Position numbers and translations under genes: made by a program. From the IMG/VR virus record IMGVR_UViG_3300044971_002751, positions 1-24,372 of that record: a DNA stretch of 24,372 bases. One strand, given 5' to 3'. Shown here piece by piece: positions 3,310 through 17,999 of the stretch (position 1 is the stretch's first letter; every line of letters begins with the position of its first letter). Origin of the DNA: a virus. The notes beneath the pieces are model-generated. The model was not told the DNA's origin. It ran no database searches and saw only the letters and a program-made list of their open reading frames with translations.

Positions 3310-3902
3310 ATCGTTCGCTCCAGCAGCTTGCGGAGCGTGGCGGCTGTCTGGTCATCCGGCACATACGCGGTTCGCAGCCTCGCTTCGGCGCGATAGATCG
3401 CCTCCCGCTCCTCGTCGGTGAGCGTGGGCGAGCGAAAGAGCGGGACGACTGCGGCATCGACATAGACGTTATTAGCCTCGGCGTGTTCGCGGAGCAGGCT
3501 GACGTACTGGTGATCGTTGTGCAAAATCGCCCACGCCACAGGCTCCTGCTGCACCGTTTCGCGACTCTCTACGCTACAGTTTCGCCGCACACTACCCTCG
3601 CACGGTGTAGCGTGCGCGGCGGGTGTAGCGTCGGCGGGTTCGATAGGCTCGGACCTATCAAATTGCCGCAGCCGCTCGATCTCATCCGCGGCCTGCTCCG
3701 AGAGCCTGTCCGTGGCCTTGAAAGCGTATGCCCTGTCGCGGAGCTGGTTAACGATGTCCCCAGCGTGGTGTTTTGGCGACCCGCTCCGCAGCATCTCAAT
3801 CTCGCGGGCCGCCTCGTCCATGAGGTCGCTGGCCGGCACCGCATCGGTGGCGATGGCCCACCTCCGCAGGCGGGACACGATGTCCCCCGAATACTCAGTC
3901 AT
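3306..3902 (-). CDS. Modular phage protein with duplicated GDIV-RLR helix unit, 198 aa
   Basis: The ATG at 3902 has GAGGA nine bases upstream and overlaps the previous gene by eight bases. Residues 6-39 and 48-79 are tandem copies of one unit of the form GDIVxxLRxxA...EAAxEIExLR, a helix-turn-helix-sized module seen singly in many phage ead/Ea22-like proteins. A polar linker follows. Then comes EPVAWAI...VVPLFRSPTLTDEEREAI (120-169) and a last helix ending QTAATLRKLLERTI, both of which resemble recurring segments of mosaic phage accessory proteins. I infer a mosaic protein built from common phage segments. No catalytic motif is visible and the function is unknown. It is in the middle of a leftward operon, coupled on both sides by overlaps. 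Confidence 0.72.
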   Translation of the reverse strand: MTEYSGDIVSRLRRWAIATDAVPASDLMDEAAREIEMLRSGSPKHHAGDIVNQLRDRAYAFKATDRLSEQAADEIERLRQFDRSEPIEPADATPAAHATPCEGSVRRNCSVESRETVQQEPVAWAILHNDHQYVSLLREHAEANNVYVDAAVVPLFRSPTLTDEEREAIYRAEARLRTAYVPDDQTAATLRKLLERTI

Positions 3903-4098
3903 AGAGTAATTCCTCGCTGATCATGTCCCGAATCAGGTGCATGTGCCGCGCCAGTTCCTCGCTCGGCTCGCCGTGCTTCAGCACCCCACGGCAGTATTGA
4001 GCGATCTCCCAGAGGGCCGCGCGGGCTTGGGGGCCGTGTATGGCGGCAAGGAAGTCGGGGCGCTCCTTGGGGAGCTGGAACTCAAGGATGGCTTTCAT
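3895..4098 (-). CDS. Small conserved-type phage protein, 67 aa
   Basis: The 67-residue protein begins MKAILEFQLPKERPDFLAAI and contains ARAALWEIAQYCRGVLKHGEPSEELARHMHLIRDMI, a pattern I associate with a widespread family of very short phage proteins (strand, then two helices, with the WE..QYCR..LKHGE core). Its function is unknown. The ATG at 4098 has no Shine-Dalgarno sequence at a usable distance; instead TAGACT lies seven bases upstream, so the message is probably leaderless. It heads the leftward three-gene operon and is divergent from the methyltransferase gene, sharing a 77-base control region. It overlaps the next gene by eight bases. Confidence 0.8.
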   Translation of the reverse strand: MKAILEFQLPKERPDFLAAIHGPQARAALWEIAQYCRGVLKHGEPSEELARHMHLIRDMISEELLYD

Positions 4099-4105
4099 GC
4101 GTTCG

Positions 4106-4130
4106 AGTCTACGCTCCTGTCAACCGCTAC
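4106..4130 (-). promoter_or_regulatory. Repeated GTAGCG-TTGACA element, copy D (leftward)
   Basis: On the minus strand GTAGCGG-TTGACA (4130-4118) is followed after six bases by TAGACT (4111-4106), and the start codon at 4098 comes seven bases later. It shares GTAGCG-N-TTGACW-N6-TANACT with the copies at 4143, 5367 and 8248. It is probably the promoter, or promoter plus operator, of the leftward operon. Confidence 0.6.
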
Positions 4131-4142
4131 AAGAATTTCTCC

Positions 4143-4167
4143 GTAGCGTTTGACACGCCCGCATACT
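4143..4167 (+). promoter_or_regulatory. Repeated GTAGCG-TTGACA element, copy A (rightward)
   Basis: GTAGCGT-TTGACA (4143-4155), CGCCCG, then CATACT (4162-4167); the GTG start codon is eight bases later. It lies back to back with copy D: the CGCTAC and GTAGCG blocks form an inverted repeat at 4125-4130 and 4143-4148 around the palindromic core AGAA-T-TTCT. A regulator binding the centre could control both directions. Confidence 0.6.
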
Positions 4168-4175
4168 GGACAGGC

Positions 4176-5486
4176 GTGAGGTACGCCAGCGTATGCGATG
4201 GGATAGGTGCCGCTCATGTGGCTTGGAAGCCATTGGGCTGGGAATGCGCGTGGACGAGCGAGATTGAGCCATTCCCATCGGCCGTGGTCGATCACCACTT
4301 CGGCCTGCCCAACCTGGGCGACATGACAAAGATCACGGAGGAGATGCTCAATGCCAGGGGAACAGTTGAACTTCTGGTCGGAGGAACCCCGTGCCAATCC
4401 TTCTCAGTTGCCGGCCTCCGAGGGGGATTGGCTGATCCGCGTGGCAACCTGGCCCTCCGATTCGTCCAGCTTGCTTCTGTCCTCAAGCCCGAGTGGATCG
4501 TTTGGGAAAACGTGCCGGGTGTCCTCAGTAGCGGAAAAGGACGGGATTTTGGAACCTTCCTCGGGGCGTTGGAGCAGCTCGGGTATGGGTGGGCCTACCG
4601 GACGCTTGACGCTCAGTGGTTTGGAGTCGCCCAAAGACGCCGCCGTGTGTTCGTTGTCTGCCATGCTCGAGACTGGCGCCGTGCCGCAGCGGTTCTTTTT
4701 GAGCGCGAAAGCGTGTTCGGGAATCCTCCGACGCGCGGAGAAGCGGGGCAAAAAGCTGCCGGAGCAGTTGTCGCTCGCTCTGCGCGCAACGGCGGGGCAA
4801 GCAACCAAGACCTAGACGCCGGCCATCTGATTCTCAGCAACGATCCGGCCCACGCCATCTGCCGCAACGAACAGCGGACATACACCAATGAGGGCTGTGT
4901 GTTCCAGTTACGGAATGTGGTGGCCCAGCCAGCCCCTGACCCCGTGGCGTTTCAGTCCAACCTCGGCTCCCACGGGGGCGACGTGTTTGAGGACGGCACC
5001 TCGCCAACGGTGCGCGTCGGAAGCAGCCTGGGCATCCCCTTCCCGCCAGCAGTCGCCTTTAAGCCATCCCACTACACTCGCGGCAAAGATGGCGCGCCTT
5101 CTGAGGTTGCCGCGCCGCCTTCGGCTGATGCCGACAAGGGCGACCAAGATACGGTCGTCGCCCAAGGCATCGGTGTTCTTGCTGCGCCGATGGCCGTTCG
5201 CCGCCTCACCCCACGCGAGTGCGAGCGGCTCCAAGGATTTCCAGACGATTACACGCTGATCCCCTACCGCAACAAGCCGGTCGTGGACTCACCGAGATAC
5301 AAGGCTCTAGGGAACTCAATGGCGGTTCCCGTGATGCGGTGGATTGGTGAACGAATAAATCTGGTGGTAGCGCTTGACACGCCCTTAAAACAGGGAGATA
5401 GCCGATATCACTCAACAAGCTTTAAGGGAGAAAGCCGTGAAGAACTATCTGGTGCGATGGAAGGAAACCGAACAAAAGCCCGATGA
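4176..5486 (+). CDS. Cytosine-C5 DNA methyltransferase (Dcm type), 436 aa
   Basis: It transfers a methyl group from S-adenosylmethionine to C5 of cytosine in DNA. The conserved motifs are all in order: motif I as VCDGIGA (6-12), motif IV GGTPCQSFS with catalytic C73, motif VI ENV (111-113), motif VIII QRRRR (153-157), a target-recognition region of about 160 residues, motif IX/X RRLTPRECERLQGFP and RYKALGNSMAVP (374-385). The recognition region contains the VAFxPSHYTRGKDGAPSEVAxPxSADADKGDQ-type segment usual in phage enzymes. The start is the GTG at 4176, which puts motif I at the very N-terminus. There is no good Shine-Dalgarno sequence and the message may be leaderless. No stop codon follows the methylase core, so about 40 extra residues run through the next gene's control element and 50 bases into that gene. 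No restriction nuclease partner is adjacent, so it is probably a protective or regulatory orphan enzyme. Its target site is not readable from sequence. Confidence 0.95.
   Translation: MRYASVCDGIGAAHVAWKPLGWECAWTSEIEPFPSAVVDHHFGLPNLGDMTKITEEMLNARGTVELLVGGTPCQSFSVAGLRGGLADPRGNLALRFVQLASVLKPEWIVWENVPGVLSSGKGRDFGTFLGALEQLGYGWAYRTLDAQWFGVAQRRRRVFVVCHARDWRRAAAVLFERESVFGNPPTRGEAGQKAAGAVVARSARNGGASNQDLDAGHLILSNDPAHAICRNEQRTYTNEGCVFQLRNVVAQPAPDPVAFQSNLGSHGGDVFEDGTSPTVRVGSSLGIPFPPAVAFKPSHYTRGKDGAPSEVAAPPSADADKGDQDTVVAQGIGVLAAPMAVRRLTPRECERLQGFPDDYTLIPYRNKPVVDSPRYKALGNSMAVPVMRWIGERINLVVALDTPLKQGDSRYHSTSFKGESREELSGAMEGNRTKAR
5367..5395 (+). promoter_or_regulatory. Repeated GTAGCG-TTGACA element, copy B, inside the methyltransferase 3' end
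   Basis: GTAGCGC-TTGACA (5367-5379) is followed by CGCCCT and TAAAAC, with a perfect CCCT-TTAAAAC-type dyad (CCCT 5382-5385, AGGG 5392-5395). Unlike the other copies it lies about 40-70 bases before the start codon it would serve (5437), giving a leader with its own ribosome binding site. It is also translated as part of the methyltransferase C-terminus. Confidence 0.55.
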
Positions 5487-5763
5487 CGAGAAACTCATCG
5501 GCATGATCAAAGCCAGGGATTTGCTCGACCTGTGGATGTCGATGGACGAGGTGATGAATCCGCATGAGGCTCAGTACCTGTCCGTGAAGGGCGAGGGCGG
5601 GGTCATCATGTACGGCAGCGAGCTGATGACAACGTCAAACATCACAGAGCAGCGGGATGTTGAGGGCGGCCCACAGTGGAAGACTTTCGTGGAGCTGGCC
5701 GGCGGCGAGCGTCTTTTTGAGTCCATGTACAAGAAATGGCATTCGGTGAAGAACGATGGATGA
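5437..5763 (+). CDS. Unknown phage protein, 108 aa
   Basis: The GTG at 5437 has AGGGAG seven bases upstream. The 108-residue product begins MKNYLVRWKETEQ and is a soluble alpha/beta protein by composition: an N-terminal strand, a helix (DEKLIGMIKARDLLDLWMSMDEV), two short strands (AQYLSV, GVIMYGSELM) and a C-terminal helix. It has no cysteine cluster, signal peptide or membrane segment. Its first 50 bases overlap the methyltransferase gene in another frame. The repeated element copy B just upstream suggests it starts its own message. It is followed by an eight-base overlap with the next gene. The family is not recognised. Confidence 0.8.
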   Translation: MKNYLVRWKETEQKPDDEKLIGMIKARDLLDLWMSMDEVMNPHEAQYLSVKGEGGVIMYGSELMTTSNITEQRDVEGGPQWKTFVELAGGERLFESMYKKWHSVKNDG

Positions 5764-6094
5764 CGAACCCCGCATCATCACGGTGGGAAAATCCCACCCT
5801 CCCACCGATGTCGCCAAATGGCTGCGAGAGCAGCCCCATGACCGGCGGATCGTCTTGAGCTGTGTGGATGCACCGAGCGTGAGGGGCGAGTACCCCACCC
5901 ACCCCTCACCTGACCCGTGCGTGGATGTGATCGTGAACAGCCTGGTGGCCGGCCAGCGAGCTGGCGTCCTAGTCCGCGTGATGGATCACCAAGCTAGAGA
6001 TCCGGCCCGCCTGTTTCAGATCGTCATCGAGGAGGCCAACGCTGCTTTTGCTGACCTAGCCAAGGGGGCAGCGGGTCAAATAAGCGAAAAGTAA
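5756..6094 (+). CDS. Unknown phage protein, 112 aa
   Basis: The ATG at 5756 overlaps the preceding gene by eight bases, indicating translational coupling. The protein has a strand-rich core (RRIVLSCVDAPSV, CVDVIVNSLVAGQRAGVLVRVM) and a C-terminal helix (PARLFQIVIEEANAAFADLAK). Two cysteines (C36, C55) are not in a metal-binding spacing. There is no hydrophobic segment long enough to cross a membrane. It is one of several unknown genes in the block between the methyltransferase and the PP-loop gene. I cannot assign a function. Confidence 0.75.
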   Translation: MDDEPRIITVGKSHPPTDVAKWLREQPHDRRIVLSCVDAPSVRGEYPTHPSPDPCVDVIVNSLVAGQRAGVLVRVMDHQARDPARLFQIVIEEANAAFADLAKGAAGQISEK

Positions 6095-6105
6095 GGAGGT
6101 GCGGT

Positions 6106-6270
6106 GTGCGACCAGGCGGCGACGATGACCTGTTGCGGATCATGTCCGAGATTGAGCGTGGCCGGCGGGAGATGCGAGAGCGTTACCGCCGGCAGCAGTT
6201 GATGATCGATCTGGTTGCGGGCGTCCTCTGGGCGGTCTTTGGTATTTTGGCTTTGGGGGTGTTCAAGTGA
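6106..6270 (+). CDS. Small single-pass membrane protein, 54 aa
   Basis: A GTG at 6106 has an AAGGAGG ribosome binding site six bases upstream and opens a 54-codon frame. Residues 1-30 are charged (MRPGGDDDLLRIMSEIERGRREMRERYRR), and residues 32-53 form one hydrophobic helix (LMIDLVAGVLWAVFGILALGVF) ending in a lysine. The arginine-rich stretch before the helix predicts the N-terminus inside the cell. The stop overlaps the next GTG start by four bases (GTGA). Small membrane proteins of this kind in phage early regions may act on the host envelope or in superinfection exclusion, but holins are usually longer or have two helices, so the role is open. Confidence 0.8.
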   Translation: MRPGGDDDLLRIMSEIERGRREMRERYRRQQLMIDLVAGVLWAVFGILALGVFK

Positions 6271-6644
6271 GCGTCAGTGTTTACGGCGAGGCCACAAGAG
6301 TGGCGCGGGCGGCAAGGTCTACTAGGTCTTTCTGCGAGACTTTCGAGGTGTCGGTCTACATGGCCGGCGACATCGAACACGCGAAACAGGTCATCCGGAG
6401 ATACTGCAACTCGCACCCCTGCTGCGTCACGGTGGCCCCGACTGCCTACATCTACCGCGGCGGCGAGGAGGCAGGCTTTGTGGTGGCGTTTCGGAATTAC
6501 CCACGGTACTCCAGCGATGACTGCACGCTCGAGGAGCAAGGCCGGGACTTGGGGATGCTGCTCAAGGACGAGTTGGGGCAGGACAGCTTCATGGTTGTCT
6601 CTCCCCGCGGAACTATATTGAACTCTGTGCGAGGAAAGCCGTGA
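6267..6644 (+). CDS. Unknown phage protein with YMAGD and GGEEAGFVV motifs, 125 aa
   Basis: The GTG at 6267 overlaps the preceding stop as GTGA, with a G-rich stretch (GGGGGTG) before it. An internal ATG at 6360 is possible but would remove the conserved-looking FEVSVYMAGD strand. The core pattern is strand (FEVSVYMAGDI), helix (AKQVIRRYC), Cys pair (CC at 52-53), strand (VTVAPTAYIYRGG), EEAGFVVAFRNYPRY, helix (LEEQGRDLGMLLKDEL), strand (SFMVVSPRGTI). This alternation looks like a small ferredoxin-fold-type alpha/beta protein. That is inference, and I do not recognise a named family. It overlaps the PP-loop gene by four bases and is probably co-translated with it. Confidence 0.78.
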   Translation: MSVSVYGEATRVARAARSTRSFCETFEVSVYMAGDIEHAKQVIRRYCNSHPCCVTVAPTAYIYRGGEEAGFVVAFRNYPRYSSDDCTLEEQGRDLGMLLKDELGQDSFMVVSPRGTILNSVRGKP

Positions 6645-7495
6645 GCGAGAAACACATCTTGAACCTGGGGGCCGGCGTTCAATCCACAGCCCTCTTCCTC
6701 ATGTCGATCGCGGGCGAGGTGCATAAATTCGACTATGCAGTCTTCGCGGACACCCAAGAAGAACCGGACGATGTTTACCACCACCTTGAGTGGCTTGAGT
6801 CTCTGGGCGGCCCTCCGATCCTGCGATGCACGGCCGGCCGGCTGGGCGATGCGTTGGACAAAGGCACGGACGCCAACGGGAATGGCCGCACGGACGGCGG
6901 CCACTACATCTCAATCCCGGCGTTTACCAAGCACCCTGACGGCAGGATGGGAGCTGTGCAGCGGCAATGCACCAAGGACTTCAAGGTTGTCCCGATTGAG
7001 CAGGCAATACGGCGGCGAGTCTTCGGCGCGGCTCCAGGCAAGGGGATCCCCAAAGACTCTGTGTGCGTCCAGTACATGGGCCTGTCATATGACGAACCCA
7101 AACGGGTTATTCGCGTAACGGAGCGGTTCCTCTCAAAGCCCAAGAACTGGAAAGTTCAGTTCCCGCTCTTTGAAATGCAGATGACTAGGGGCGACTGCAT
7201 GGCCTACCTGAAGGAGCGAGTCCCTCACGAAGTCCCGCGGTCGGCCTGCGTCTTCTGCCCGTTTAAGAAAGACGATGAATGGCGGCGGCTTCGCGACCAC
7301 GACCCCAAAGGGTGGTCTAGGGCGATTGAAATCGACCGTGTCTGTAGGACGGGAACTGGACTAGACGCCCAGCGGTTCCTTCATCGGCAGTGCGTTCCGC
7401 TGGAGCAAGTGGATCTGCGAACCGAGCAGGAGCGTACTGGGCAGATGATGTTTCAAGGATTCCAAGACGAGTGCGAGGGGTACTGTGGTAACTGA
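6641..7495 (+). CDS. PP-loop ATPase, PAPS-reductase-like, 284 aa
   Basis: The GTG at 6641 has GAGGA about seven bases before it and overlaps the previous gene by four bases. Residues 10-16 (GAGVQST) are a PP-loop of the adenine-nucleotide alpha-hydrolase fold, right after a hydrophobic strand, and YAVFADTQEEPDDVYHHLEWL follows as in phosphoadenosine-phosphosulfate reductase-like proteins. RQCTKDFK (108-115) is the family's substrate-loop motif. SACVFCPFK (C203, C206), C251, C278 and C282 suggest a bound Fe-S cluster or zinc. Relatives include cysteine-biosynthesis reductases, DndC of DNA phosphorothioation and many phage proteins of unknown role. No dndA, dndD or dndE-like gene is present, so sulfur modification of DNA is not shown. 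The gene is coupled by an 11-base overlap to the putative nuclease-fold gene that follows. Confidence 0.85.
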   Translation: MSEKHILNLGAGVQSTALFLMSIAGEVHKFDYAVFADTQEEPDDVYHHLEWLESLGGPPILRCTAGRLGDALDKGTDANGNGRTDGGHYISIPAFTKHPDGRMGAVQRQCTKDFKVVPIEQAIRRRVFGAAPGKGIPKDSVCVQYMGLSYDEPKRVIRVTERFLSKPKNWKVQFPLFEMQMTRGDCMAYLKERVPHEVPRSACVFCPFKKDDEWRRLRDHDPKGWSRAIEIDRVCRTGTGLDAQRFLHRQCVPLEQVDLRTEQERTGQMMFQGFQDECEGYCGN

Positions 7496-8003
7496 CTCAG
7501 GCCGGCCGGCGACAGCTCAGACCGTCACTGTCACGCTGGACAACTCCGAATACCTCCATGCCCTCATAGCCGGCTCCCTCCGCAGGGCGTCTGCCAGGGA
7601 GAAGGGGCGGAAGAACTACTACGGGGCGCAGTCGGCCGACTCCGAGCTGCTCGACCTCATAGGCTCCGTGGGGGAATGCGTGGTGGCCAAGCACCTCGAC
7701 AGGTTCTGGGCCGGCGCCGGCCTGTTCCGCGGCGAGGATGTGGGCGAGTACCAAGTCCGCACCACCACCTATGACTCCGGTCATCTGGTGCTGAACAAGA
7801 ACGACTCCGATGACAAGAAGTACATCTTGGTGTGCGTGAACAGCGGAGTCGGCAAGATCCGTGGCTGGATGTACGCCCGCGACGGGAAGCAGGAAAAGTA
7901 CTGGAAGGACATGTCTGGCCGGGGCGGCGCCTTCTATGTCCCGCAATCCGACTTACGGCCGATTTCCACGCTCAAATCCCCCAGTGTTGACAACGAGTTT
8001 TAG
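7485..8003 (+). CDS. Putative PD-(D/E)XK-like phage protein, 172 aa
   Basis: The GTG at 7485 follows AGGGG closely and overlaps the PP-loop gene by 11 bases. The centre reads like a minimal restriction-endonuclease-type fold: a helix with a conserved-looking GxxGE (G60-E64) and VAKHL, then D85 in EDVGEYQVRT (84-93), where D and Q-V-R take the place of D-(E/Q)xK, followed by strands HLVLNKND and KYILVCVNS, GWMYARDG and the ending YVPQSDLRPI. Unknown phage proteins with this GE..AK / DVG..QVRT / VPQS..LRP signature are common in environmental phages, as far as I recall. The lysine of the canonical site is replaced by arginine, so activity is uncertain. It could act with the PP-loop enzyme on nucleic acid. 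It is the last gene before a new promoter. Confidence 0.7.
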   Translation: MVTDSGRPATAQTVTVTLDNSEYLHALIAGSLRRASAREKGRKNYYGAQSADSELLDLIGSVGECVVAKHLDRFWAGAGLFRGEDVGEYQVRTTTYDSGHLVLNKNDSDDKKYILVCVNSGVGKIRGWMYARDGKQEKYWKDMSGRGGAFYVPQSDLRPISTLKSPSVDNEF

Positions 8004-8017
8004 GCGGTGCCTATACT
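7987..8017 (+). promoter_or_regulatory. Promoter for the helix-turn-helix gene, probably leaderless
   Basis: A perfect TTGACA (7987-7992) and TATACT (8012-8017) lie 19 bases apart. TATACT ends six bases before the ATG at 8024, so transcription should begin at or beside the start codon. No Shine-Dalgarno sequence precedes the ATG. It overlaps the 3' end of the upstream gene. Confidence 0.65.
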
Positions 8018-8023
8018 CGCAGC

Positions 8024-8248
8024 ATGGCTAAGAAGAAACCGAGAAAGATCATGCCGATCGACCTGGAGGAGATGGTCACCCTCCCAGACGCCGCCAAGCT
8101 CATGGACGTTGCCGAGTCCTATGTGCGGAAGCTCGTGCGCGAGAAGCGGGTGGTGGGCTTGAAGTTCGGTCGCAACTATCTGGTCAGCCGGCAGTCTGCC
8201 GCTAAGTTCCAGAAGAAGCCGGGATACGGCCGGCCCAAAAGCCGCTAG
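8024..8248 (+). CDS. Helix-turn-helix excisionase-like DNA-binding protein, 74 aa
   Basis: After a basic start (MAKKKPRKIMP), residues 16-60 (EMVTLPDAAKLMDVAESYVRKLVREKRVVGLKFGRNYLVSRQSAAKF) fit the MerR-like excisionase-family winged helix-turn-helix: helix PDAAKLMDV, recognition helix ESYVRKLVREKRV, wing GLKFGRNYLVS. The protein is the usual size for phage excisionases and small transcription regulators of this type. No integrase is in the window, so a regulator is as likely as a recombination directionality factor. The ATG at 8024 has no ribosome binding site and lies six bases after a -10 box, so the mRNA is probably leaderless. Its position just before copy C of the repeated element makes it a candidate for the factor that reads those elements, which is inference. 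Confidence 0.85.
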   Translation: MAKKKPRKIMPIDLEEMVTLPDAAKLMDVAESYVRKLVREKRVVGLKFGRNYLVSRQSAAKFQKKPGYGRPKSR

Positions 8249-8279
8249 TAGCGCTTGACTCGCCCATAAACTGGGAGTC
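8248..8279 (+). promoter_or_regulatory. Repeated GTAGCG-TTGACT element, copy C
   Basis: GTAGCGC-TTGACT (8248-8260), CGCCCA, TAAACT (8267-8272), then seven bases to the ATG at 8280. It contains a dyad CCCA-TAAAC-TGGG, flanked by GACT and AGTC. GGGAG lies only two bases from the ATG, too close for a normal ribosome binding site. It starts on the last base of the upstream stop codon. Confidence 0.6.
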
Positions 8280-8531
8280 ATGGCGAAACGCTACGAATGC
8301 ATCGGCGGCCCATTGTGCGGCGAGAAGTTTCCGCTGTTCTATGGGCTATCCATGTCCCAAGCGTTTGGGACTATCGATCGCGATGGCGGTGCGCACTACT
8401 ACCGCCTCTGCATCGTCCGCGATGAGATGGATCGCGTAGCCAAGTTCTGGCATTACGCCGGGGTTGAGCTGAACCCATTCATGCCGCCGACGCTTCTCCC
8501 ACCTCGGCGGATGTTCCGAGAAAACTGCTGA
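8280..8531 (+). CDS. Unknown small protein with CIGGPLCG motif, 83 aa
   Basis: The 83-residue product begins MAKRYECIGGPLCGEKFPLFYG. Short proteins starting with a strand and a C/GGP-x-C/D-G turn are frequent in phage genomes, where their role is unknown. The rest alternates strand-like pieces (YYRLCIV, AKFWHYAGV) with a proline-rich end (NPFMPPTLLPPRR). Cysteines at 7, 13, 44 and 83 do not form an obvious zinc site. The start is fixed by the repeated element, whose TAAACT box lies seven bases upstream. It is the last gene before two hairpins that close this block. Confidence 0.75.
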   Translation: MAKRYECIGGPLCGEKFPLFYGLSMSQAFGTIDRDGGAHYYRLCIVRDEMDRVAKFWHYAGVELNPFMPPTLLPPRRMFRENC

Positions 8532-8553
8532 CACTGGCCTGCATCTGCCAGTG
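8532..8553 (+). terminator. Short hairpin after the 83-aa gene
   Basis: CACTGGC and GCCAGTG form a 7-bp stem around an 8-base loop, directly after the stop codon at 8531. The following bases (ACACTTCTTTC) are only partly T-rich, so by itself this is a weak terminator or an RNA-stabilising hairpin upstream of the strong terminator at 8600. Confidence 0.4.
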
Positions 8554-8599
8554 ACACTTCTTTCAATCCTTGCCTGTCGCACCTAGCCCGTGCGACACG

Positions 8600-8642
8600 A
8601 CGCGGCCCAGCGCTCTCCCTTCGCGCTGGGCCGCGTTCTTTT
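8600..8642 (+). terminator. Strong intrinsic terminator ending the accessory block
   Basis: A perfect 14-bp G+C-rich stem (8600-8613 with 8623-8636) has a 9-base loop and is followed by TTCTTTT. GACAC before and GTGTC after could extend it as an outer stem. It separates the accessory genes from the structural operon that begins at 8706. No clear promoter was found in the 60 bases between them. Confidence 0.92.
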
Positions 8643-8688
8643 GTGTCCATAAGCAAGGCAGAGGTTCTCTGGCCCCTAACCAATGGAA

Positions 8689-8699
8689 GGGAGGTGATC
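8689..8699 (+). promoter_or_regulatory. Near-complete Shine-Dalgarno sequence
   Basis: GGGAGGTGATC matches almost the whole 3' tail of bacterial 16S rRNA and ends six bases before the ATG at 8706. It is much longer than other ribosome binding sites here and predicts strong translation of the small protein that opens the structural block. Confidence 0.8.
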
Positions 8700-8705
8700 A
8701 CATCT

Positions 8706-8861
8706 ATGGCGAAGAAGAAAGCTCCGAAGAAAAGCCTCAAGGACAAGTTCAACGCAGCCTACGAAAAGATGGAATTCGCTCGCATGAAGGAGCGATCGAG
8801 CAAGGCTGGCAAGGGTGGGGGCGAGTACTGCGGCAAGGGCGGATGCAACTGCGGGAAATGA
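8706..8861 (+). CDS. Small basic protein with cysteine tail, 51 aa
   Basis: The ATG at 8706 is set by the near-perfect Shine-Dalgarno sequence. The 51 residues have a lysine-rich start (MAKKKAPKKSLKDKF), an amphipathic helix (NAAYEKMEFARMKERSSK) and a glycine/cysteine tail with C42, C47 and C49. The basic N-terminus suggests binding to nucleic acid, and the cysteines suggest a metal or disulfide. Strong translation and its place at the head of the morphogenesis block fit a small virion or DNA-condensing protein, but no family is recognised. An upstream in-frame ATG at 8643 is rejected because it lies in the terminator's tail and lacks a ribosome binding site. Confidence 0.8.
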   Translation: MAKKKAPKKSLKDKFNAAYEKMEFARMKERSSKAGKGGGEYCGKGGCNCGK

Positions 8862-8864
8862 GCA

Positions 8865-9248
8865 ATGCCGCTGCCAACACGAACGCTCGAGCAATTGCAG
8901 GAGTGGGTGTGGTCTGAACTTCCAGTTCGCAAGAACGTGGCGGGCAAGGAGGCGGTGTTCGATGCCGTTTCCGCTGCCGTCCATGAGTGGCCCGATGAGG
9001 AGCTTTCTTCTTCGCCGGCCGGCGGCGAACGCGAGATGGCCGCGATGCTCAGTCTCAGCAAGAGCGTCAGGCGGCACATGGCTCTCGTCTATGGGGAAAA
9101 GCAGTTTGGCTCCATGTGGGTGATCGCCCTCCAGATCCTTCTGCCGCTGATCGTTGATCTGGTTCTCAAGTGGTGGCGCCGCCGGAAGGAACACCGCGCC
9201 CGCGTCCGCGTATGGAGGAGGAAGTGGGTCAATGGCTCCGAACAGTAA
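8865..9248 (+). CDS. Single-pass membrane protein, 127 aa
   Basis: The ATG at 8865 is four bases after the previous stop, with a weak GGGAAATGAG upstream. Residues 1-80 are soluble and mostly helical. Residues 83-103 (SMWVIALQILLPLIVDLVLKW) are a strong transmembrane helix, followed by a very basic tail (WWRRRKEHRARVRVWRRKW). By the positive-inside rule the C-terminus is cytoplasmic and the N-terminal domain would be outside. It might be a lysis-related or ejection-related protein, but it lacks the features of canonical holins or spanins. The last 17 bases overlap the start of the DNMT3-like gene. Confidence 0.78.
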   Translation: MPLPTRTLEQLQEWVWSELPVRKNVAGKEAVFDAVSAAVHEWPDEELSSSPAGGEREMAAMLSLSKSVRRHMALVYGEKQFGSMWVIALQILLPLIVDLVLKWWRRRKEHRARVRVWRRKWVNGSEQ

Positions 9249-10143: not shown

Positions 10144-13100
10144 TGGCTACACCGAATGCAGTTCGCGGCGCCTTGCGGGCAAACAACATTGTCGGCCTCT
10201 TGGAATACAAGCCGGGGCCGGGGATCTACTCCCGCCTCGAGCGAGCCGTGCAGCAGCTCCCCGAGAACGTCAGGGTGCAGGAACTCCCCGGCCTGCTGAA
10301 GCGGTACAAGGACGGCATCCCTGGCTGGGAGCTGAACGCCGTCGATCTGAACTCCGTGGTGGCCGGCCGAACGGTCGTGCCGCGCGAGGAGCTGCTGGCC
10401 GCGGTGCGAGAGCGTAGCCCCGTGTTCACGAACAAGAACGTGATTCTCGGTGGTAACGCGGCTCGTTCTACGATGGCGTACCAGCCCGATCCTGTCACGG
10501 TCAAACCCGTTCCGCTAGGCGGTGACGGCAGGCATGGCAAGCCTGTGTGGGAAGCATATGGCCTGCAAGGGCCGGAATACAAAGAAAGGCTGCTGTTGCA
10601 GCCGGAAGACCCACAGCCGGCAACACCAGGCCAATGGCAGGACAGTCGCAATCGCGGCCGTAACCACTTCGTTGGCAACTGGCTTGGCGGGAACGTGGTT
10701 TCCCACTTGCGGACAGACACGAACGGAGACGCTCTTCGGATCGTGGAGTTGCAATCTGACCTACAGAATCAAGCCCAGAGGGCCGCTGATCCAAATACCG
10801 TTGTGTTTCCAACTGCCGATGTTTGGCAGGAACTTCAACTCAAGTCGGCTTTGCTAGATGCAGCTCGAAGCGGCAAAAACGCCCTTGAGGTCGCAAATCC
10901 AGAAGACATCTCCCGCGTGGTGGGTTTCCCGCAGGACAAGTCGAAGAAGTTCTACGGAACGATGGTGCCTCAGATTCTGGAAAAAACGGGCAAGAGGTTG
11001 GGCGGCTTCAGTGAGATTAGCCGGCCAGCCGCAGAAGCCGGTCAGTCGCAGTTCGTGGATGACACCGTCAGATACATCAACTCCACGCACAACCAACAGA
11101 GAGGCGAGGCACTGGAAAATGCGGTGATGGATCTCGCCAAGATGGACGACATTCACTCAGCAGAACAACACCTTCGCGAAAACCCGCAAATCATCGAAGA
11201 AGCAGAGATTCCGCAGGAAACAAAGACCGAGCTGCAACGCTATCTAGCATACGCCAACCAGCGAGCCACGATTTGGGACAACACCGGAGCGGAGGACTAT
11301 TACTCCGCAATGGACGTTTTGAGCAACCCGAATTGGCGTCAAGAGTACGGCTTCAACGGGATGGATGCCGTGAATGTGGGGCGGCTGCGAACAGAGCTGG
11401 GCTTGGATGTAGACGAAATCAATCCAGCGTTTGCAGGCCCGCTTGGCCATACCGAGACAGGATTGCGAAACCTAGACAACGGCTCCGAAGAAATCCTCAA
11501 CAACATCCAGCGCAAGATTGTTCGCGAGCTGGACGGCACAGACAGGACGTTCTTTCAAGTCAACAGCGGCGACGGCGCAGACTTGATCACTTCACGCAAG
11601 CTTAACGGACTTCTGCACAACCTACAGAACACCGCCGAGACAAGGGCGCACGTTCTAAATCGAGGCGAACACCCCAGGGGCTTCGCGGCGGAAAGAAACG
11701 GCCCAGACCTCTACAGAAAACTTAGCGAGATACTAGGCGAAGAGCGAGCCGCTAAATTGCTGCCAGAGATCATGCTCGATCTTGAGCAATACGGTGAGAT
11801 GCGAAACAACATGGGGCGGTTGCAAGACGTTCAAGAAACGCTCGTGGGCAACGCTGAAGAAGCACTGAAGCCCTCTGGTTGGCGTGGCGTCATCTCTGAC
11901 GAGATGCGGAGGCGGATCATCAATGAGGGCATCCCGGCCGCCATCGCCGTGGGCGTGGGAACCGGACTCGCAACCGGCAGCAACGAAGCCCAGGCCAAGC
12001 CCGTCCTGCCGGAATCGGATGCCGTCCTCCGAGCTGCTATGCCGTGGCAGACCCAGCGAAAGATCACCCGCCTCACCAAGCAAGTCGATGCCGCCTACGA
12101 AAAGGGCGACTTCAAGACTGCCGAGAAGCTGGACGCCCAGCGTGAGCAGCTCGTTGAGGATTGGGACAACAAGCTGGATGCCCTCGATGAAGGTGACGGC
12201 AACGCCGACTTTGAGCCAGAGCCTTACGATGAAGACTCTGCATGGACTGACGAGCTGGCCAACGTCTATGGTCGAGCGGCCGTGGCCCAAAGCCCCACCT
12301 ATGGGATAGAGAACGACGCCGAGCTGGCCCAGGCTCTCCGCGGCGTGTTCCCAGACACCGCCAGGGCAAACGCGATCCCAGACTCCGAGATCATCCAGTA
12401 CGCCAAGGATGCCTTCGACCAGCGGCAGGCCCACCTAGCCAAGGTGCGGTCGAGATCACCCGAGGACGGCGTCCGTGCCATGCAGGCCCAGATGCGTGGG
12501 GCCGGCCTCGCCCCGGCCGTGGCCGCCGGCATGCAAGGGCAGCAGTCGCAGGATCAGACGGGCGGCTACAAGTTCGACGCGATCAAGGCATTCAACGAGC
12601 TGCCGCGAGGGCAAGTTGACCTCGGGCCGATGGGGAGCGGCACCCCAGACCGCAGCTTCGACTTCTCAATGGCAAACTCGCCAGGGGAGTGGGCGACCTA
12701 CTATGACAAAGCTGCAAAGGAGGGCTACTCCCAAGAACACCTCCAGTTCCGCAAGAACGTGGCCGAGGTGATGCAGCAGCCGCTGATCCGAGTCGGCGCC
12801 GCCAACGATCCCGATGTGCAGAACGACCGCGGCATTCCACTGTTGGTCGATGGTGACCAGTACGATCGCATCACGCCGGCCCAGTTCGTCAACGAGTACC
12901 TCGATGTATTCGCTGGCAAGATGCCGCCGGAACGCCGCGCTCAAGTAGTGCAGCGGGTGCAGGCCAAGCTCGACGGCTCGACCCGCGCTCCAGACGAGCT
13001 GGCAGATCCGATCATCAGCCGGATGATGAACTCGTTGCAGGCCAGCTCACCAGGCGGGAAGCATGCCGCGGTCGATCCGATGCCGCAGGAGCAGCTCGAG

Positions 13101-14312
13101 CAGCTCAAAGCCCAGCACGGCGGGTGGGCAGACTCGATGCTCACACCAGGCGGCGCGGAGAACTTTCAGACTCTCCGAGGCTATGAGCTGCTGCGGTCAA
13201 CAATGGAGGGTGAACACGCCCCGGTCTACGCCGACACGATGTCGAATGTCGTGGCCGGCGTGAAGGGCATATTCGACTCCAAGGCCCGCCAGAACTTCCG
13301 CGACTCCACTATGGAGGCTGGCCCCGAGGGGCGGTTCATCCGAGGCAACCGGGACTACGCCGCAGCCGGCCCTCGAGAAGGCGAGCCTGCTGCATTCCGA
13401 AACCAAGATGGAAGTTCGCGATTCGCGAATACCACAACGTCCAATGTGCAGGGGCTGATGCGGGCCGGCAGCGATGTCTCCAACCCTGTCGGTGCGATGT
13501 CGTGGCCGCTGTATGAATCATTTTCCGAGTTCAGCCGTACTCCTGTTGGAAAGGCTGTGACGGGCGAGGGCGGCTCGGCGTTGTTCAGCGACCACGGCTG
13601 GGACGCCTGGAGGCACATGGCGGCGCAGCGGCAGGCATTTGACCGCGAACAGCCGATCCTGCCGGCCGGCATGTCCCGCGAGGAATTCGACCGGCAGAAA
13701 GCAGCTCAACAGCAGGATCGCGCCGAGGGGCAGGCTTGGGGGGCGACTACTTGGCCCAACGTCCAGAATGCCTTTGAGCAGACGGGGCTGATGTTCTCGC
13801 CCCAAGCGTGGGGCGGCGGCGATGCTCCAGCTCCCGAGCCGCTGAAGAAGACATGGGGGCCGCCTCTCTACAACGACTACGGCCCGAACTTCCTACAGAA
13901 CACGGTTGGCAACATCCCGTCTGCCGCCATCATGGCTGGCGCGGCAGCGACCGGCGGAATTGGTGGGCTGGCTTCCGGAGCATTCAAGCCGTCAGGTAGC
14001 ACCGTCCGGAGTCTCATCAACTCTGGCATGGGCCTCGGCAAGGGTGCCGTTCGAGGAGCTGGCGCTGCCGTGACGAGCCAAGCCAAGGATGTGCCGGCCG
14101 ACTTTGGCACAGACATGGGGATCGGTGGCGGCATCGCTGGCTGGGCGAACTACCGCAATTACCTCCTGACACCGCAGGAAGATAACGCCCTGCTCCCCGA
14201 TGTGGATCCGAATGAGATGTCGATCGATGAGCTGAACCGAGCCAGATCCGATGCGATGAACGAGAGAGAGAAGAGGTTCCGATCGAACCAGTGGCAGTGG
14301 GGTAGGCAATAA
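10143..14312 (+). CDS. Giant polyvalent virion protein, probably ejected with DNA, 1389 aa
   Basis: The start is coupled to the methyltransferase stop as TAATG. The protein is mosaic. Residues 1-110 are a leading region. Residues about 180-290 contain HLRTDTNGDALRIVELQSDLQNQAQ...WQELQLKSALLDAARSG...KFYGTMVPQILEKTGKRLG, matching the E(L/I)QSD-type domain that recurs in large polyvalent phage proteins. A hydrophobic segment at about 595-615 (IPAAIAVGVGTGLATGSNEAQA) is followed by a long acidic, helical and Q-rich half. Glycine/alanine-rich hydrophobic stretches occur near the end (SAAIMAGAAATGGIGGLASGAF; GMGLGKGAVRGAGAAV; GIGGGIAGW). Size, hydrophobic patches and place in the structural operon fit a protein packaged in the head and delivered with the DNA, like internal virion proteins. 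Base composition is lower in G+C from about 10,450 to 11,870, suggesting an acquired domain. Confidence 0.8.
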   Translation: MATPNAVRGALRANNIVGLLEYKPGPGIYSRLERAVQQLPENVRVQELPGLLKRYKDGIPGWELNAVDLNSVVAGRTVVPREELLAAVRERSPVFTNKNVILGGNAARSTMAYQPDPVTVKPVPLGGDGRHGKPVWEAYGLQGPEYKERLLLQPEDPQPATPGQWQDSRNRGRNHFVGNWLGGNVVSHLRTDTNGDALRIVELQSDLQNQAQRAADPNTVVFPTADVWQELQLKSALLDAARSGKNALEVANPEDISRVVGFPQDKSKKFYGTMVPQILEKTGKRLGGFSEISRPAAEAGQSQFVDDTVRYINSTHNQQRGEALENAVMDLAKMDDIHSAEQHLRENPQIIEEAEIPQETKTELQRYLAYANQRATIWDNTGAEDYYSAMDVLSNPNWRQEYGFNGMDAVNVGRLRTELGLDVDEINPAFAGPLGHTETGLRNLDNGSEEILNNIQRKIVRELDGTDRTFFQVNSGDGADLITSRKLNGLLHNLQNTAETRAHVLNRGEHPRGFAAERNGPDLYRKLSEILGEERAAKLLPEIMLDLEQYGEMRNNMGRLQDVQETLVGNAEEALKPSGWRGVISDEMRRRIINEGIPAAIAVGVGTGLATGSNEAQAKPVLPESDAVLRAAMPWQTQRKITRLTKQVDAAYEKGDFKTAEKLDAQREQLVEDWDNKLDALDEGDGNADFEPEPYDEDSAWTDELANVYGRAAVAQSPTYGIENDAELAQALRGVFPDTARANAIPDSEIIQYAKDAFDQRQAHLAKVRSRSPEDGVRAMQAQMRGAGLAPAVAAGMQGQQSQDQTGGYKFDAIKAFNELPRGQVDLGPMGSGTPDRSFDFSMANSPGEWATYYDKAAKEGYSQEHLQFRKNVAEVMQQPLIRVGAANDPDVQNDRGIPLLVDGDQYDRITPAQFVNEYLDVFAGKMPPERRAQVVQRVQAKLDGSTRAPDELADPIISRMMNSLQASSPGGKHAAVDPMPQEQLEQLKAQHGGWADSMLTPGGAENFQTLRGYELLRSTMEGEHAPVYADTMSNVVAGVKGIFDSKARQNFRDSTMEAGPEGRFIRGNRDYAAAGPREGEPAAFRNQDGSSRFANTTTSNVQGLMRAGSDVSNPVGAMSWPLYESFSEFSRTPVGKAVTGEGGSALFSDHGWDAWRHMAAQRQAFDREQPILPAGMSREEFDRQKAAQQQDRAEGQAWGATTWPNVQNAFEQTGLMFSPQAWGGGDAPAPEPLKKTWGPPLYNDYGPNFLQNTVGNIPSAAIMAGAAATGGIGGLASGAFKPSGSTVRSLINSGMGLGKGAVRGAGAAVTSQAKDVPADFGTDMGIGGGIAGWANYRNYLLTPQEDNALLPDVDPNEMSIDELNRARSDAMNEREKRFRSNQWQWGRQ

Positions 14313-14335
14313 AAACTGCTGACATCGCGTGCATA

Positions 14336-14356
14336 GCTGCCCCCAGAATCGGCAGC
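14336..14356 (+). other. Small hairpin before the scaffold gene
   Basis: GCTGCC and GGCAGC form a 6-bp stem with a 9-base loop, ending six bases before the AAGGAGG ribosome binding site of the next gene. There is no T run, so it is not an intrinsic terminator. It may affect message stability or stand as a processing site. Confidence 0.35.
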
Positions 14357-14376
14357 ACCTCAAGGAGGGCATGCAC

Positions 14377-15432
14377 ATGTCGGAAGAAGAAGCAGCAGAC
14401 GTTGGCTCTACGGAAGCATTCTCTGACTCCTCGGCCGCGCCCGAGATTGATTCGTCGCCGGCACAGGCAGAAGGATCGGAGGCCTCCGCAGGAAGCGGAG
14501 AAGTCTGGGGTGCATTCCGCCAGCTCCCGCAATTCCAAGGCGCCGATGACCGAGCCATCGCCTCCCGGCTCTACGAAGCCCTCCAGCGAGAGCAGTCTGC
14601 TACGCATGCTCTCCAGCAGTATCAGTCGCTGATTCCCGTCACTTCCGAGTACCTCCAGTACAAGGAACCGTTTCAGCAGTGGATGCAGACGCGGCAGCAG
14701 CCACAGCAGCAGCCGATGGCCCCAGCTCCGCAGGCCCAGCCCGAGCAATCCCCCTGGTGGAATCCCCCGAAGCTGCGAGATGCCTACCGGCAGTACCTCG
14801 TGCGCGACGAGAGCGGCCGGGAGATGATCTCACCGGACGCTCCGCTCGACGCTCGCCACGCCCTCTCCGAGTACCAGGCGTACAAAGCCAACTTCGCCCA
14901 GAAGTTCCTCGAGGATCCGCAGGCAGCTCTCGGCCCGATGGTCGAGAAGGTGGCCGTTGAGCGGGCCGAAAGCATCGTCCAAGAGCGGTTGGGACGCATG
15001 CAGGAGGAGCAATTCGTCTCCTCCCTGGAGCAGCAGAACTCAGATTGGCTGTATGACCAAAATGGCAATGCATCCCCAGAAGGACTTCTTGCCCAGAAGT
15101 ATATACAGGACGCACGGTCACTGGGCATCCAAGGGGCGAAAGCCCGTTGGGAGTATGCGACTCGAATGGTTGAGAGAGACTTACTTCTCTCAAACATGCA
15201 GAGATCACAACAGGCCCAGCAGTATGCGGCACAGGCTCCACGGCCTGCACCGCAGCCGCCCGTGAATCCTGCGAACGTCGCTGCTCAAAAGAACATGGAG
15301 TACTTGCGTACACAAGCCATGCGAACTGCGAGCCAGCGACCGGCCGCGACAACCGATGCGAGAGTTCCAACCAAACCAATGACCTTTGCCGAAAAACTTG
15401 CGGTGCAACTGCAAGAACAAGGCATGGCCTGA
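14377..15432 (+). CDS. Putative capsid scaffolding protein, 351 aa
   Basis: AAGGAGG stands eight bases before the ATG at 14377, which is preferred to the ATG two codons upstream. The product has the profile of a scaffold: an acidic, serine- and alanine-rich N-terminus (MSEEEAADVGSTEAFSDSSAAPEIDSS), a glutamine/proline-rich linker (QTRQQPQQQPMAPAPQAQPEQ), long helices with coiled-coil character (FAQKFLEDPQAALGPMVEKVAVERAESIVQERLGRMQEEQ) and a basic C-terminal end where scaffolds bind the coat. It lies directly before the major capsid gene, the standard place. No protease domain is visible. Scaffolds share little sequence, so the call rests on position and composition. Confidence 0.72.
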   Translation: MSEEEAADVGSTEAFSDSSAAPEIDSSPAQAEGSEASAGSGEVWGAFRQLPQFQGADDRAIASRLYEALQREQSATHALQQYQSLIPVTSEYLQYKEPFQQWMQTRQQPQQQPMAPAPQAQPEQSPWWNPPKLRDAYRQYLVRDESGREMISPDAPLDARHALSEYQAYKANFAQKFLEDPQAALGPMVEKVAVERAESIVQERLGRMQEEQFVSSLEQQNSDWLYDQNGNASPEGLLAQKYIQDARSLGIQGAKARWEYATRMVERDLLLSNMQRSQQAQQYAAQAPRPAPQPPVNPANVAAQKNMEYLRTQAMRTASQRPAATTDARVPTKPMTFAEKLAVQLQEQGMA

Positions 15433-15456
15433 CACTCCTAAAGAGGACAAAGAGAC

Positions 15457-16605
15457 ATGGCGTCACCCACCGATTGGGCGAGAGTTATTGGGACTACAAT
15501 TGTACAGCACACGCGCGAAGAAGAGCTGGCGACGTTTCGCAAGTTCAAGATCTTCGCGATGCTGGAGTCCTCCGGCAACGTGGTGATGAACCAGAGCGGT
15601 CGAGGTTTCGACTGGAACGTCCGGTACAGAAATGCGCCCGTTTCGGGGAACACAGGCGATACGCCGAGGACGTTCAGTCGCATCAACATGTGGAAGCGGG
15701 CCGAGCTTCCGTGGAGGGGATTCACCAGTACTGATGCCGTGTATCGACGGGAGCTACTCGAGAACCGCGGCCAGCAGGCGCTCGTAGACGTTGCCGGCAA
15801 GATGGCCAGCCGTCTGCAAGAGTCGCTCGAGATGCATCTCTCGTATCAGCCGTACAAGGACGGCAATGCGGCGAATGCGGAGAACGACTTCCACGGCATG
15901 GACTCGTTCCTCAACTACAGCGGCACGGTCGATGAGTCGAGTGCCAAGGTCGCAGAAGTTCGCAGCTCGGCCAACACGGCCGATCGCTACGGCTTCCCCG
16001 ATGACAACTACGCCGGCCTCTCCACGAAGCTCGGCTACTACGGTGGCGGTCGCATCAACGCGACCACTGGAACGTGGCCCAACGTGCCGGTGGACAGCGA
16101 ACTCGACTTCTACTCCCCGGTCGTGATCAACTACAACGCCAGCTCGTTCAACTCCGCTGGCAACCGCAACTGGAAGTCGAACTGCATCTTCTCGATCCGC
16201 GAAGGCATTCACCAGTGCAAGCGGAACGACACGAAGGAATCGCAGATCGACATGGTCGTTCTCGATCGCCAGCTCTACATCCAGTTCCTCAATCAGTACG
16301 CTGACAAGGAACGGATCCAGATCACCAAGGAAGGTGGCCTGAAGGCGATGGGCTTTTCCGATGTCACGACCCTCGACGGCGTCGAGGTCTGCTCGGAGTA
16401 CGCTTGTCCAGCAGGTCGAGGCTACGGCCTGTCGATCGGCAACATGGAGTTGCGCTGCCTGGAAAACCAGCTTTTCGTCGCGGAAGGCCCATTTTTCGAC
16501 GAAGAAACGCAGGCATATAGGTACGCCTGTTCATCTCTCGGCAACCTCCGTTTTCGTAGTCCGAGGAATTTTTTTCTGCTCGCCCCCGTCACCGCGGCTG
16601 CTTGA
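15457..16605 (+). CDS. Major capsid protein, 382 aa
   Basis: The ATG at 15457 has AGAGGACAAAGAG before it. The 382-residue protein has the pattern of HK97-fold coats: an N-terminal arm with EEELATFRKFKIFAMLESSGNVVMNQSGRGFDWNVRYRN, a long helix (ENRGQQALVDVAGKMASRLQESLEMHL), an extended loop region with a WP-containing segment, DMVVLDRQLYIQFLNQYADKERIQI as a spine-type segment, and the typical coat ending GNLRFRSPRNFFLLAPV. VEVCSEYACPAGRGYGLSIGNMELRC before it is the kind of beta strand seen in the P domain. The neighbours are scaffold upstream and a decoration-like protein downstream. The product forms the icosahedral shell. I am confident of the role but not of the nearest named family. Confidence 0.88.
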   Translation: MASPTDWARVIGTTIVQHTREEELATFRKFKIFAMLESSGNVVMNQSGRGFDWNVRYRNAPVSGNTGDTPRTFSRINMWKRAELPWRGFTSTDAVYRRELLENRGQQALVDVAGKMASRLQESLEMHLSYQPYKDGNAANAENDFHGMDSFLNYSGTVDESSAKVAEVRSSANTADRYGFPDDNYAGLSTKLGYYGGGRINATTGTWPNVPVDSELDFYSPVVINYNASSFNSAGNRNWKSNCIFSIREGIHQCKRNDTKESQIDMVVLDRQLYIQFLNQYADKERIQITKEGGLKAMGFSDVTTLDGVEVCSEYACPAGRGYGLSIGNMELRCLENQLFVAEGPFFDEETQAYRYACSSLGNLRFRSPRNFFLLAPVTAAA

Positions 16606-16629
16606 TCCCTACAAGGAGAACCCAGAGTC

Positions 16630-17211
16630 ATGTCGAGCTTATTCTCTGACCCCCCGTTCCGCCGTGGCACGACGCTGCTCCAAGGCGAGGCGATTGAAAC
16701 CGACGCAAGCACCGGCAACCCGGTGGCCGGCGGCGAGATCGTTGGTCAGGTCAAGGTCTTCCAAGACGTTAACCCCTCGACCGGCACTCGCCACAGCAAT
16801 CGGCTGGTGTACTGCGTGGCCGCCCGCTACAAGGGAGCCACCGTCAGTGACGCCACGACGGTAGCTGGCGAAGTCTATCTCTGCGACTTCAGCAACCCGA
16901 TGGCGGCGTTCACCACGAAGGGTACGGCCAGCAACGTCCTAGTGGGCCTTGCCTACGGTGTGCTGGACGAGTACCTGACCGGCGAGTTGCGCCAGAACGA
17001 CATCGTCTGGCTGGTGGTCAAGGGGCCGGCCGATGTCAAGCAGACGGCTGCTGCCATCAACGCCGGCGCTCAGGTGCAAGTCTCCGCGACGGCTGGCTCG
17101 ATTGCCACGTTTTCAACGGGCCTCTGCATCGGCCAGCAGATCGAAGGTTCCAACACCACCGCGACTGCGCAGCTCACGCGAGTCAACCTCATCGGCTACG
17201 AAATCGGCTGA
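16630..17211 (+). CDS. Putative capsid decoration protein, 193 aa
   Basis: The ATG at 16630 is preceded by AAGGAGAAC. The protein is beta-rich, with few charges and many small residues (GAQVQVSATAGSIATFSTGLCIGQQIEGSNTTATAQLTRVNLIGYEIG), and contains DIVWLVVKGPADVKQTAAAINAGAQVQVS, a pattern seen in phage head decoration proteins where a strand with W-x-V-x-x-G-P leads to a glycine-rich turn. The position right after the capsid gene supports this. It has no signal peptide or membrane helix. Alternatives are a head fibre or a small capsid-stabilising protein. It ends 28 bases before a hairpin. Confidence 0.65.
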   Translation: MSSLFSDPPFRRGTTLLQGEAIETDASTGNPVAGGEIVGQVKVFQDVNPSTGTRHSNRLVYCVAARYKGATVSDATTVAGEVYLCDFSNPMAAFTTKGTASNVLVGLAYGVLDEYLTGELRQNDIVWLVVKGPADVKQTAAAINAGAQVQVSATAGSIATFSTGLCIGQQIEGSNTTATAQLTRVNLIGYEIG

Positions 17212-17238
17212 TGCAGAGCTGACATCATCTACGCCTCT

Positions 17239-17269
17239 AACAGCTCGCGGCTCAACACCGCGGGCTGTT
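17239..17269 (+). terminator. Terminator-like hairpin after the capsid operon
   Basis: A 12-bp stem with one G-T wobble (17239-17250 with 17258-17269) and a 7-base loop follows the decoration-like gene. The tail (ATGCTTT) is not a clean T run, so it may be a partial terminator or stabilise the 3' end of the capsid message. The gene at 17283 starts 14 bases after it. Confidence 0.55.
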
Positions 17270-17282
17270 ATGCTTTACAGAC

Positions 17283-17999
17283 ATGGAAGAGCGAACGTGT
17301 AATGTCTGCGGCGGCACCTATCCTCTCGACAGGCAGCACTTCCGGTGGCGGAAGGACTTGGAGATCTTCACGGCTGAATGTCTCTCCTGCCGCGCCAAGC
17401 AGCGGCGTGAGAGCAAGGAGCGTGCGGCCTTCAAGCGGGCCGAGGCTCTAGCCACGATTGAGTCGGCCGGCGTAGACATCTTCCTCCGCTCGGCCCAGAA
17501 GGGCGGCTCCAACATCCCGCACACAGCGGAGGTGATTGAGAAAATCTTCCAGTACTTCGGCGGCAGCGGTGGCATGGCCGCGGTGATGGTCAAGCAGTAC
17601 TGGGACGCCGCACCAGGCAGCTCTGCCCGCAACCGCCTGCTCGAGACGATCTGCCGCATGGTCACGAAAAACGTGGACTCTGGCGGCGCGAAGAAACCTC
17701 TGTCCCTGTGGACAGAGGAGGAGCTGGAAAACGAGCTGAACCAGCGATTTGAGCAGGCTCTGTCTGCTTTCCAGGGGAGAACCATCAATGTCAGACCCGC
17801 AGAAGCCCTCCCGGCCCCGAAAGAAGCGGCACCCGAAGGTGCAGCCGCCGCAGATCCCGAACATACCGACGATATCCGAGTACCAAAAAGAAAGCCTCAA
17901 AGAGCTTCAAAGCGAGCTGCGAGAGCGGAAGACAGAAGCTCTACGCCTCTACCGAGCGAACCCGCAGCAGGAGGAGATCCACAAGTGCCGAGCGAGTGA
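17283..17999 (+). CDS. Zinc-finger protein in the small-terminase position, 238 aa
   Basis: The ATG at 17283 has no Shine-Dalgarno sequence, and TATGCT ends eight bases before it, so it may be leaderless or depend on the hairpin just upstream. Cys6-x2-Cys9 and Cys33-x2-Cys36 form a zinc ribbon (NVCGGTYPLDRQHFRW...AECLSCRAKQ) of the kind found in phage HNH-related proteins and DNA-binding proteins. It lacks an HNH catalytic core. The middle (HTAEVIEKIFQYFGGSGGMAAVMVKQYWDA...LLETICRMV) is helical. The last 70 residues are low-complexity and overlap the terminase gene by 212 bases in another frame. Location directly before TerL and a DNA-binding start suggest a small terminase subunit, which recognises the packaging site. 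That is inference from context. Confidence 0.68.
   Translation: MEERTCNVCGGTYPLDRQHFRWRKDLEIFTAECLSCRAKQRRESKERAAFKRAEALATIESAGVDIFLRSAQKGGSNIPHTAEVIEKIFQYFGGSGGMAAVMVKQYWDAAPGSSARNRLLETICRMVTKNVDSGGAKKPLSLWTEEELENELNQRFEQALSAFQGRTINVRPAEALPAPKEAAPEGAAAADPEHTDDIRVPKRKPQRASKRAARAEDRSSTPLPSEPAAGGDPQVPSE

Follow-up and report, generated by a model that had tools for sequence, protein, structure and literature searches.

The window, the whole 24.4-kb stretch of DNA analysed here, is a phage fragment from IMG/VR that carries phage structural genes as well as DNA methylases and a PAPS-reductase-like gene. The gene at 17749–19506 is read as the large terminase, judged by its position and conservation. 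Five genes, starting at 4098 (minus strand), 4176, 8024, 8280, and 17283, have a TANNNT-like box shortly before the start codon. At 4098, 4176, and 8280 the box is part of one promoter-like module consisting of GCGY-TTGAC, exactly 7 bases, and TANNNT, referred to here as the N7 module. The features discussed are as follows.

3895–4098, minus strand: 67-aa gene of no known family, candidate leaderless
4106–4123, minus strand: N7 module, with TTGAC at 4123–4119, 7 bases, and TAGACT at 4111–4106, 7 nt before ATG 4098
4150–4167, plus strand: N7 module, with TTGAC, 7 bases, and CATACT, 8 nt before GTG 4176
4176–5486, plus strand: C5 cytosine DNA methylase (PF00145, 5e-53), candidate leaderless, GTG 4176 being the sole possible start
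5374–5391, plus strand: N7 module (TTGAC-N7-TAAAAC) serving as internal control, 45 nt upstream of the Shine-Dalgarno-led gene 5437
5424–5430, plus strand: Shine-Dalgarno sequence AAGGGAG of gene 5437 (dG -8.8)
5437–5763, plus strand: 108-aa gene with a normal leader and Shine-Dalgarno sequence, downstream of an N7 module
7987–8017, plus strand: second layout, TTGACA-N19-TATACT, 6 nt before ATG 8024, kept in the relatives G001, G002, G003, and G004
8024–8248, plus strand: 74-aa small helix-turn-helix protein (HTH_17/excisionase-like, weak matches), candidate leaderless
8255–8272, plus strand: N7 module, with TTGAC, 7 bases, and TAAACT, 7 nt before ATG 8280, the N7 spacing being kept in G001–G004
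8280–8531, plus strand: 83-aa gene of no known family, candidate leaderless
15457–16605: match to a major head protein, a phage structural gene
17239–17274, plus strand: terminator-like hairpin AACAGCTCGCGG/CCGCGGGCTGTT (the hairpin itself at 17239–17269) with TATGCT on its tail
17283–17999, plus strand: 238-aa gene just upstream of the terminase, of ambiguous leaderless status
19807–21840: portal match, a phage structural gene

The large terminase has no phage relatives in INPHARED and more than 80 relatives in IMG/VR. In GTDB genomes, relatives were found in a Planctomycetia bin (75% identity) and a Pirellulaceae bin (55–56%), and a 35–38% relative accompanied by head and portal genes sits on a 148-kb planctomycete contig, which also bears MdoG and DUF7133/cytochrome c genes and on which the phage-like locus looks like a prophage. 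The fourth GTDB match, a weak one, is a betaproteobacterial bin. The host is therefore probably a member of the Planctomycetes, with the caveat that the short contigs might be binning errors. The suggestion of the sequence-only reading that the boxes hint at an actinobacterial or Deinococcus host is unsupported, because the relatives of the phage lie in Planctomycetes genomes.

That reading had described the five genes as unit-leading and leaderless, with TANNNT boxes ending 6–8 nt before the start codon and no usable Shine-Dalgarno (SD) sequence. The positions and spacings of the boxes are correct, TATGCT ending 8 nt before ATG 17283 and the others as given above. Four of the five boxes are TANNNT, whereas the box of gene 4176 (CATACT, or GATACT in a relative) is not strictly so. 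Each of the five starts is the furthest upstream possible in its own ORF, and the start of 4176 cannot lie further downstream because residue 1 already belongs to the methylase domain. The absence of a usable SD sequence at the five starts was borne out, since the SD-like strings near two of them are misplaced, with AGGAG lying 15 nt from start 4098 and GGGAG only about 3 nt from start 8280, and both are absent from the relatives. SD sequences are present at the other unit leaders, 1205 (minus strand), 1485, 5437, and 8707, and at 8690–8707 a gene is preceded by GGGAGGTGATC, which is complementary to the canonical 16S tail almost throughout (dG -17), so strong SD use exists in the same phage. 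Genes inside operons had been said to carry SD sequences, which holds for some and not for all of them, those of 10143, 14329, and 23888 being weak. Among nine candidate unit leaders, the choice of which involved judgement, TANNNT at 6–8 nt was observed four times against 0.40 expected from shuffled upstream regions (P = 0.0004). A comparison of upstream motifs over all 27 genes gave 4 against 0.93 expected after shuffling (P = 0.013). In a set of 133 gene clusters, boxes at 6–8 nt occur in 7 of 40 clusters without SD sequences versus 2 of 93 with them (P = 0.003). Chance accounts poorly for boxes at this distance.

The distance between box and start is also kept in orthologues. It is 7 nt for gene 8280 in five genomes (the window and G001–G004), 6 nt for 8024 in five (the window and four relatives), 8 nt for 4176 in two (the window and one relative), and 7 nt for 4098 in two (the window and one close relative), with a weaker version in one distant relative. 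The same is seen for a gene outside the five, whose product contains MYSLLHSGP and whose box lies 6–7 nt before the start in G002, G007, and the distant L238. No SD sequence was found in the orthologues of 8280, 8024, 4176, 4098, and the MYSLLHSGP gene that keep a box distance of 6–8 nt. The TANNNT box, the lack of an SD sequence, and the conserved spacing would place these genes with leaderless genes having a TA-like signal, the spacing of 17283 being mixed. The leaderless reading is thus likely to be right for 8280, 8024, 4176, and 4098, as judged from the conserved spacing and the association of boxes with missing SD sequences, and is doubtful for 17283.

Gene 17283 is ambiguous because its TATGCT box sits on the tail of the conserved terminator-like hairpin, overlapping the 3' end of that element. 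Whether this box is simply the tail of an intrinsic terminator, with no promoter there, is evenly balanced for this one gene. The hairpin at 17239 is kept in dozens of relatives, and L019, L020, L022, L036, and L037 have T-rich tails without TANNNT, which speaks for a terminator; against this, the hairpin-less lineages L013, L017, and L085 carry TATNNT at 6–7 nt from the ATG, and TGACA stands 19 bp upstream of it.

The N7 module, its copy at 5374, and the TTGACA-N19 layout at 8024 had been missed by the sequence-only reading. When TTGAC-N(k)-TANNNT was counted in the window, G001–G004, and G007, 15 sites were found at k = 7 and 0–3 at almost every other k, the remaining raised values being k = 18 (7 sites, canonical sigma-70) and k = 20 (5 sites, the 8024 orthologues). 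With orthologues removed, k = 7 retains 9 sites, where the other spacings average 0.57 (P about 1e-8); roughly 3 of these 9 fall in structural genes and look like chance matches. Only the N7 spacing recurs among many loci in near relatives; a clear peak was not found in more distant ones. The orthologue of 4098 in G003 reads TTGAC-N7-TAGAAT-7-ATG, with a weaker version in L034, and that of 4176 in G001 reads TTGAC-N7-GATACT-8-GTG, while the module is absent from the 4176 orthologue in G004 (L085). In a scan of IMG/VR for the 7-base gap placed 7 nt before an ATG, the only matches were the five known relatives and a single unrelated sequence that came up three times, and a control scan with an 8-base gap found only other sequences. 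In stretches of planctomycete DNA the counts are highest at the canonical spacing (k = 18 for the Pirellulaceae bin, G017, and k = 17–18 for the Planctomycetia bin, G016), so N7 is no visible host habit. The three boxes are better explained by a module that appears to be phage-specific than by a general leaderless habit of the host.

The module also occurs at genes that have SD sequences. The copy at 5374 is kept in G001, G002, and G004, and at position 40969 of G002 an N7 module lies 24 nt upstream of a gene with the SD sequence AGAGGAG. Because the module both adjoins SD-less starts and lies 24 or 45 nt before SD-led genes, it looks like a transcription element, the placement of which would decide whether the message has a leader and needs an SD sequence. 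RNA polymerase usually starts 6–8 bp beyond a -10-like box. We propose that at least 4098 (minus strand), 4176, 8024, and 8280 would each be transcribed from their own promoter, the -10-like box of which ends 6–8 bp before the start codon, with RNA polymerase starting on the first base of that codon or beside it. The resulting messages would be leaderless or near-leaderless and would be translated without an SD sequence. Three of these putative promoters and that of gene 5437 would share the phage-clade module, which would set the transcription start, and at 5437 the gene carries an SD sequence instead. Gene 8024 would use the other layout, TTGACA-N19-TATACT; its TTGACA falls within the last part of the ORF before it, and the conservation of this block may therefore be partly at the protein level. 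We regard this account as a whole as probable. The affected genes are probably several early genes in a family of uncultured phages, with most of their promoters sharing a layout that is seemingly phage-specific.

The unit-leading position claimed for all five genes is less direct for 8024 and 8280, which begin 20 and 31 nt past the preceding stop codon and could lie on longer transcripts. Such short gaps would suit internal genes of a longer operon that are translated by re-initiation, with the boxes being incidental. This seems quite improbable, as the boxes and spacings are kept in five genomes at 66–88% protein identity, and the N7 module is also present at the divergent promoters of 4098 and 4176, where no ORF precedes on that strand.

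Neither layout has the 16–18-bp gap between -35 and -10 of a sigma-70 promoter: at the N7 sites TTGAC is followed by 7 bp, and at 8024 TTGACA is followed by 19 bp. Inspection by eye of the 8280 orthologues showed no canonical -35 a further helical turn above the TTGAC block. As a 7-bp gap to the -10 fits no ordinary sigma-70 promoter, the TTGAC block may be a regulator site. It could be an operator, bound by a phage repressor or activator, that overlaps a promoter of the ordinary -10-only type, in which case the conserved spacing would reflect regulator placement and transcription would still start near the start codon. TTGACA-containing stoperators of cluster A mycobacteriophages offer a likeness. 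Block and -10 are 11 bp, or one helical turn, closer than in the canonical k = 18 promoters of the same phages, and inverted repeats such as GACTCGCCCATAAACTGGGAGTC overlap some sites, but these repeats are lost in some orthologues (L084) and a cognate regulator for the block was not found. We consider an operator a serious but somewhat less than even prospect.

The N7 module might instead be read by an ECF-like sigma factor of the phage itself. A divergent 173-aa protein of this kind, found in 15 IMG/VR loci (for example L094:12680–13198 and L089:6980–7498, minus strand), is 66–88% conserved across the phage family. Its orthologues match Sigma70_r2 (E 0.0027) and Sigma70_r4_2 (E 0.022), nearly all top Foldseek matches of its model are sigma factors, and its best PDB profile match is the ECF factor SigE (E 0.065). 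Each of these matches is weak and the model has a pLDDT of 62.5, yet the sigma-70-family signals are consistent. Phage sigma factors do read unusual promoters, as with phiEco32 gp36, which uses a single element with starts 6–8 bp downstream (PMC8948821). On the other side, distant phages with the 173-aa protein lack a clear N7 peak, and ordinary two-domain sigma factors span about 16–17 bp. Recognition of the module by this protein is accordingly rated as unlikely. A still less likely form of the idea is that the factor reads a compact promoter, with TTGAC one helical turn nearer the -10, and thereby makes chosen early genes leaderless in a host that uses SD sequences. A search for a T7-type RNA polymerase gave no match, and its control was silent as well.

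The boxes had also been taken as a hint at the translation habits of the host, on which the window says little in general. SD starts are frequent and leaderless signals scarce in the planctomycete DNA that was sampled: 460 kb of G017 show clear SD starts and no box peak at 6–8 nt. In the first half-megabase of G016, 13 occurrences of an extended -10 motif, picked once the data had been viewed, were found versus 2 expected; fresh DNA gave 1 versus 1.4 expected, and this leaderless signal was dropped as not replicating. Across all terminase relatives the leaderless signal is weak, since the sample consisted largely of structural operons. A published survey of one planctomycete pointed to starts that are leaderless and/or S1-dependent (PMC5397173), and no planctomycete transcription-start map was found in the literature searched.

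Other elements were seen in the window and its relatives. A canonical promoter, TTGAC-N18-TACGCT (2765–2793, plus strand), is followed by a strongly structured stretch to 2960 that has no gene of its own on the plus strand, is conserved at 85–97% in G001–G003, gave no Rfam match, and is a candidate small RNA. Another conserved promoter of the canonical type, TTGAC-N18-TATYTT or TATTTT, occurs at L094 3432–3500, L089 17107 (minus strand), and L104 10819 (minus strand), followed by conserved, apparently non-coding sequence with 'agaaggga'. G002 has serine resolvase/invertase-like (L094:13540–14295, minus strand) and tyrosine integrase-like (L094:2721–3416, minus strand) genes, and L094:15464–16699 (minus strand) matches a phage queuine tRNA-ribosyltransferase family (phrog_887, 1e-27).

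Catalogues of leaderless genes come mainly from Actinobacteria, Deinococcus, and archaea, and Planctomycetes-linked phages are little studied. A module that gives SD-less starts when adjacent and SD starts when farther away would be a natural experiment on promoter position and translation mode, and its unusual spacing, in phages that have a gene for a sigma-like protein, would allow new promoter recognition to be tested. In leaderless genes already known (Zheng et al. 2011, PMC3160421; for Deinococcus, PMC12340547), a TANNNT box stands about 12 bp ahead of the start, and the genes described here resemble them in having TANNNT ending 6–8 nt before the start and no SD sequence. They differ in belonging to a Planctomycetes-linked phage family, in being few, and in that most boxes belong to a two-block module of fixed spacing, in which TTGAC precedes the box by 7 bp. 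The canonical sigma-70 promoter (TTGACA-N17-TATAAT) likewise has two hexamer-like blocks, whereas in the phage the blocks stand 6 bp apart at the N7 sites, if the first is counted as TTGACA, and 19 bp apart at 8024. The promoters of phage sigma factors, such as those of phiEco32 gp36 and phage 7-11 (PMC8948821), are similar in being a clade-specific element with starts 6–8 bp downstream, a position that is predicted here, and in belonging to phages that encode a sigma-like protein; they differ in sequence and layout, and the link between sigma factor and module is putative in the present family.
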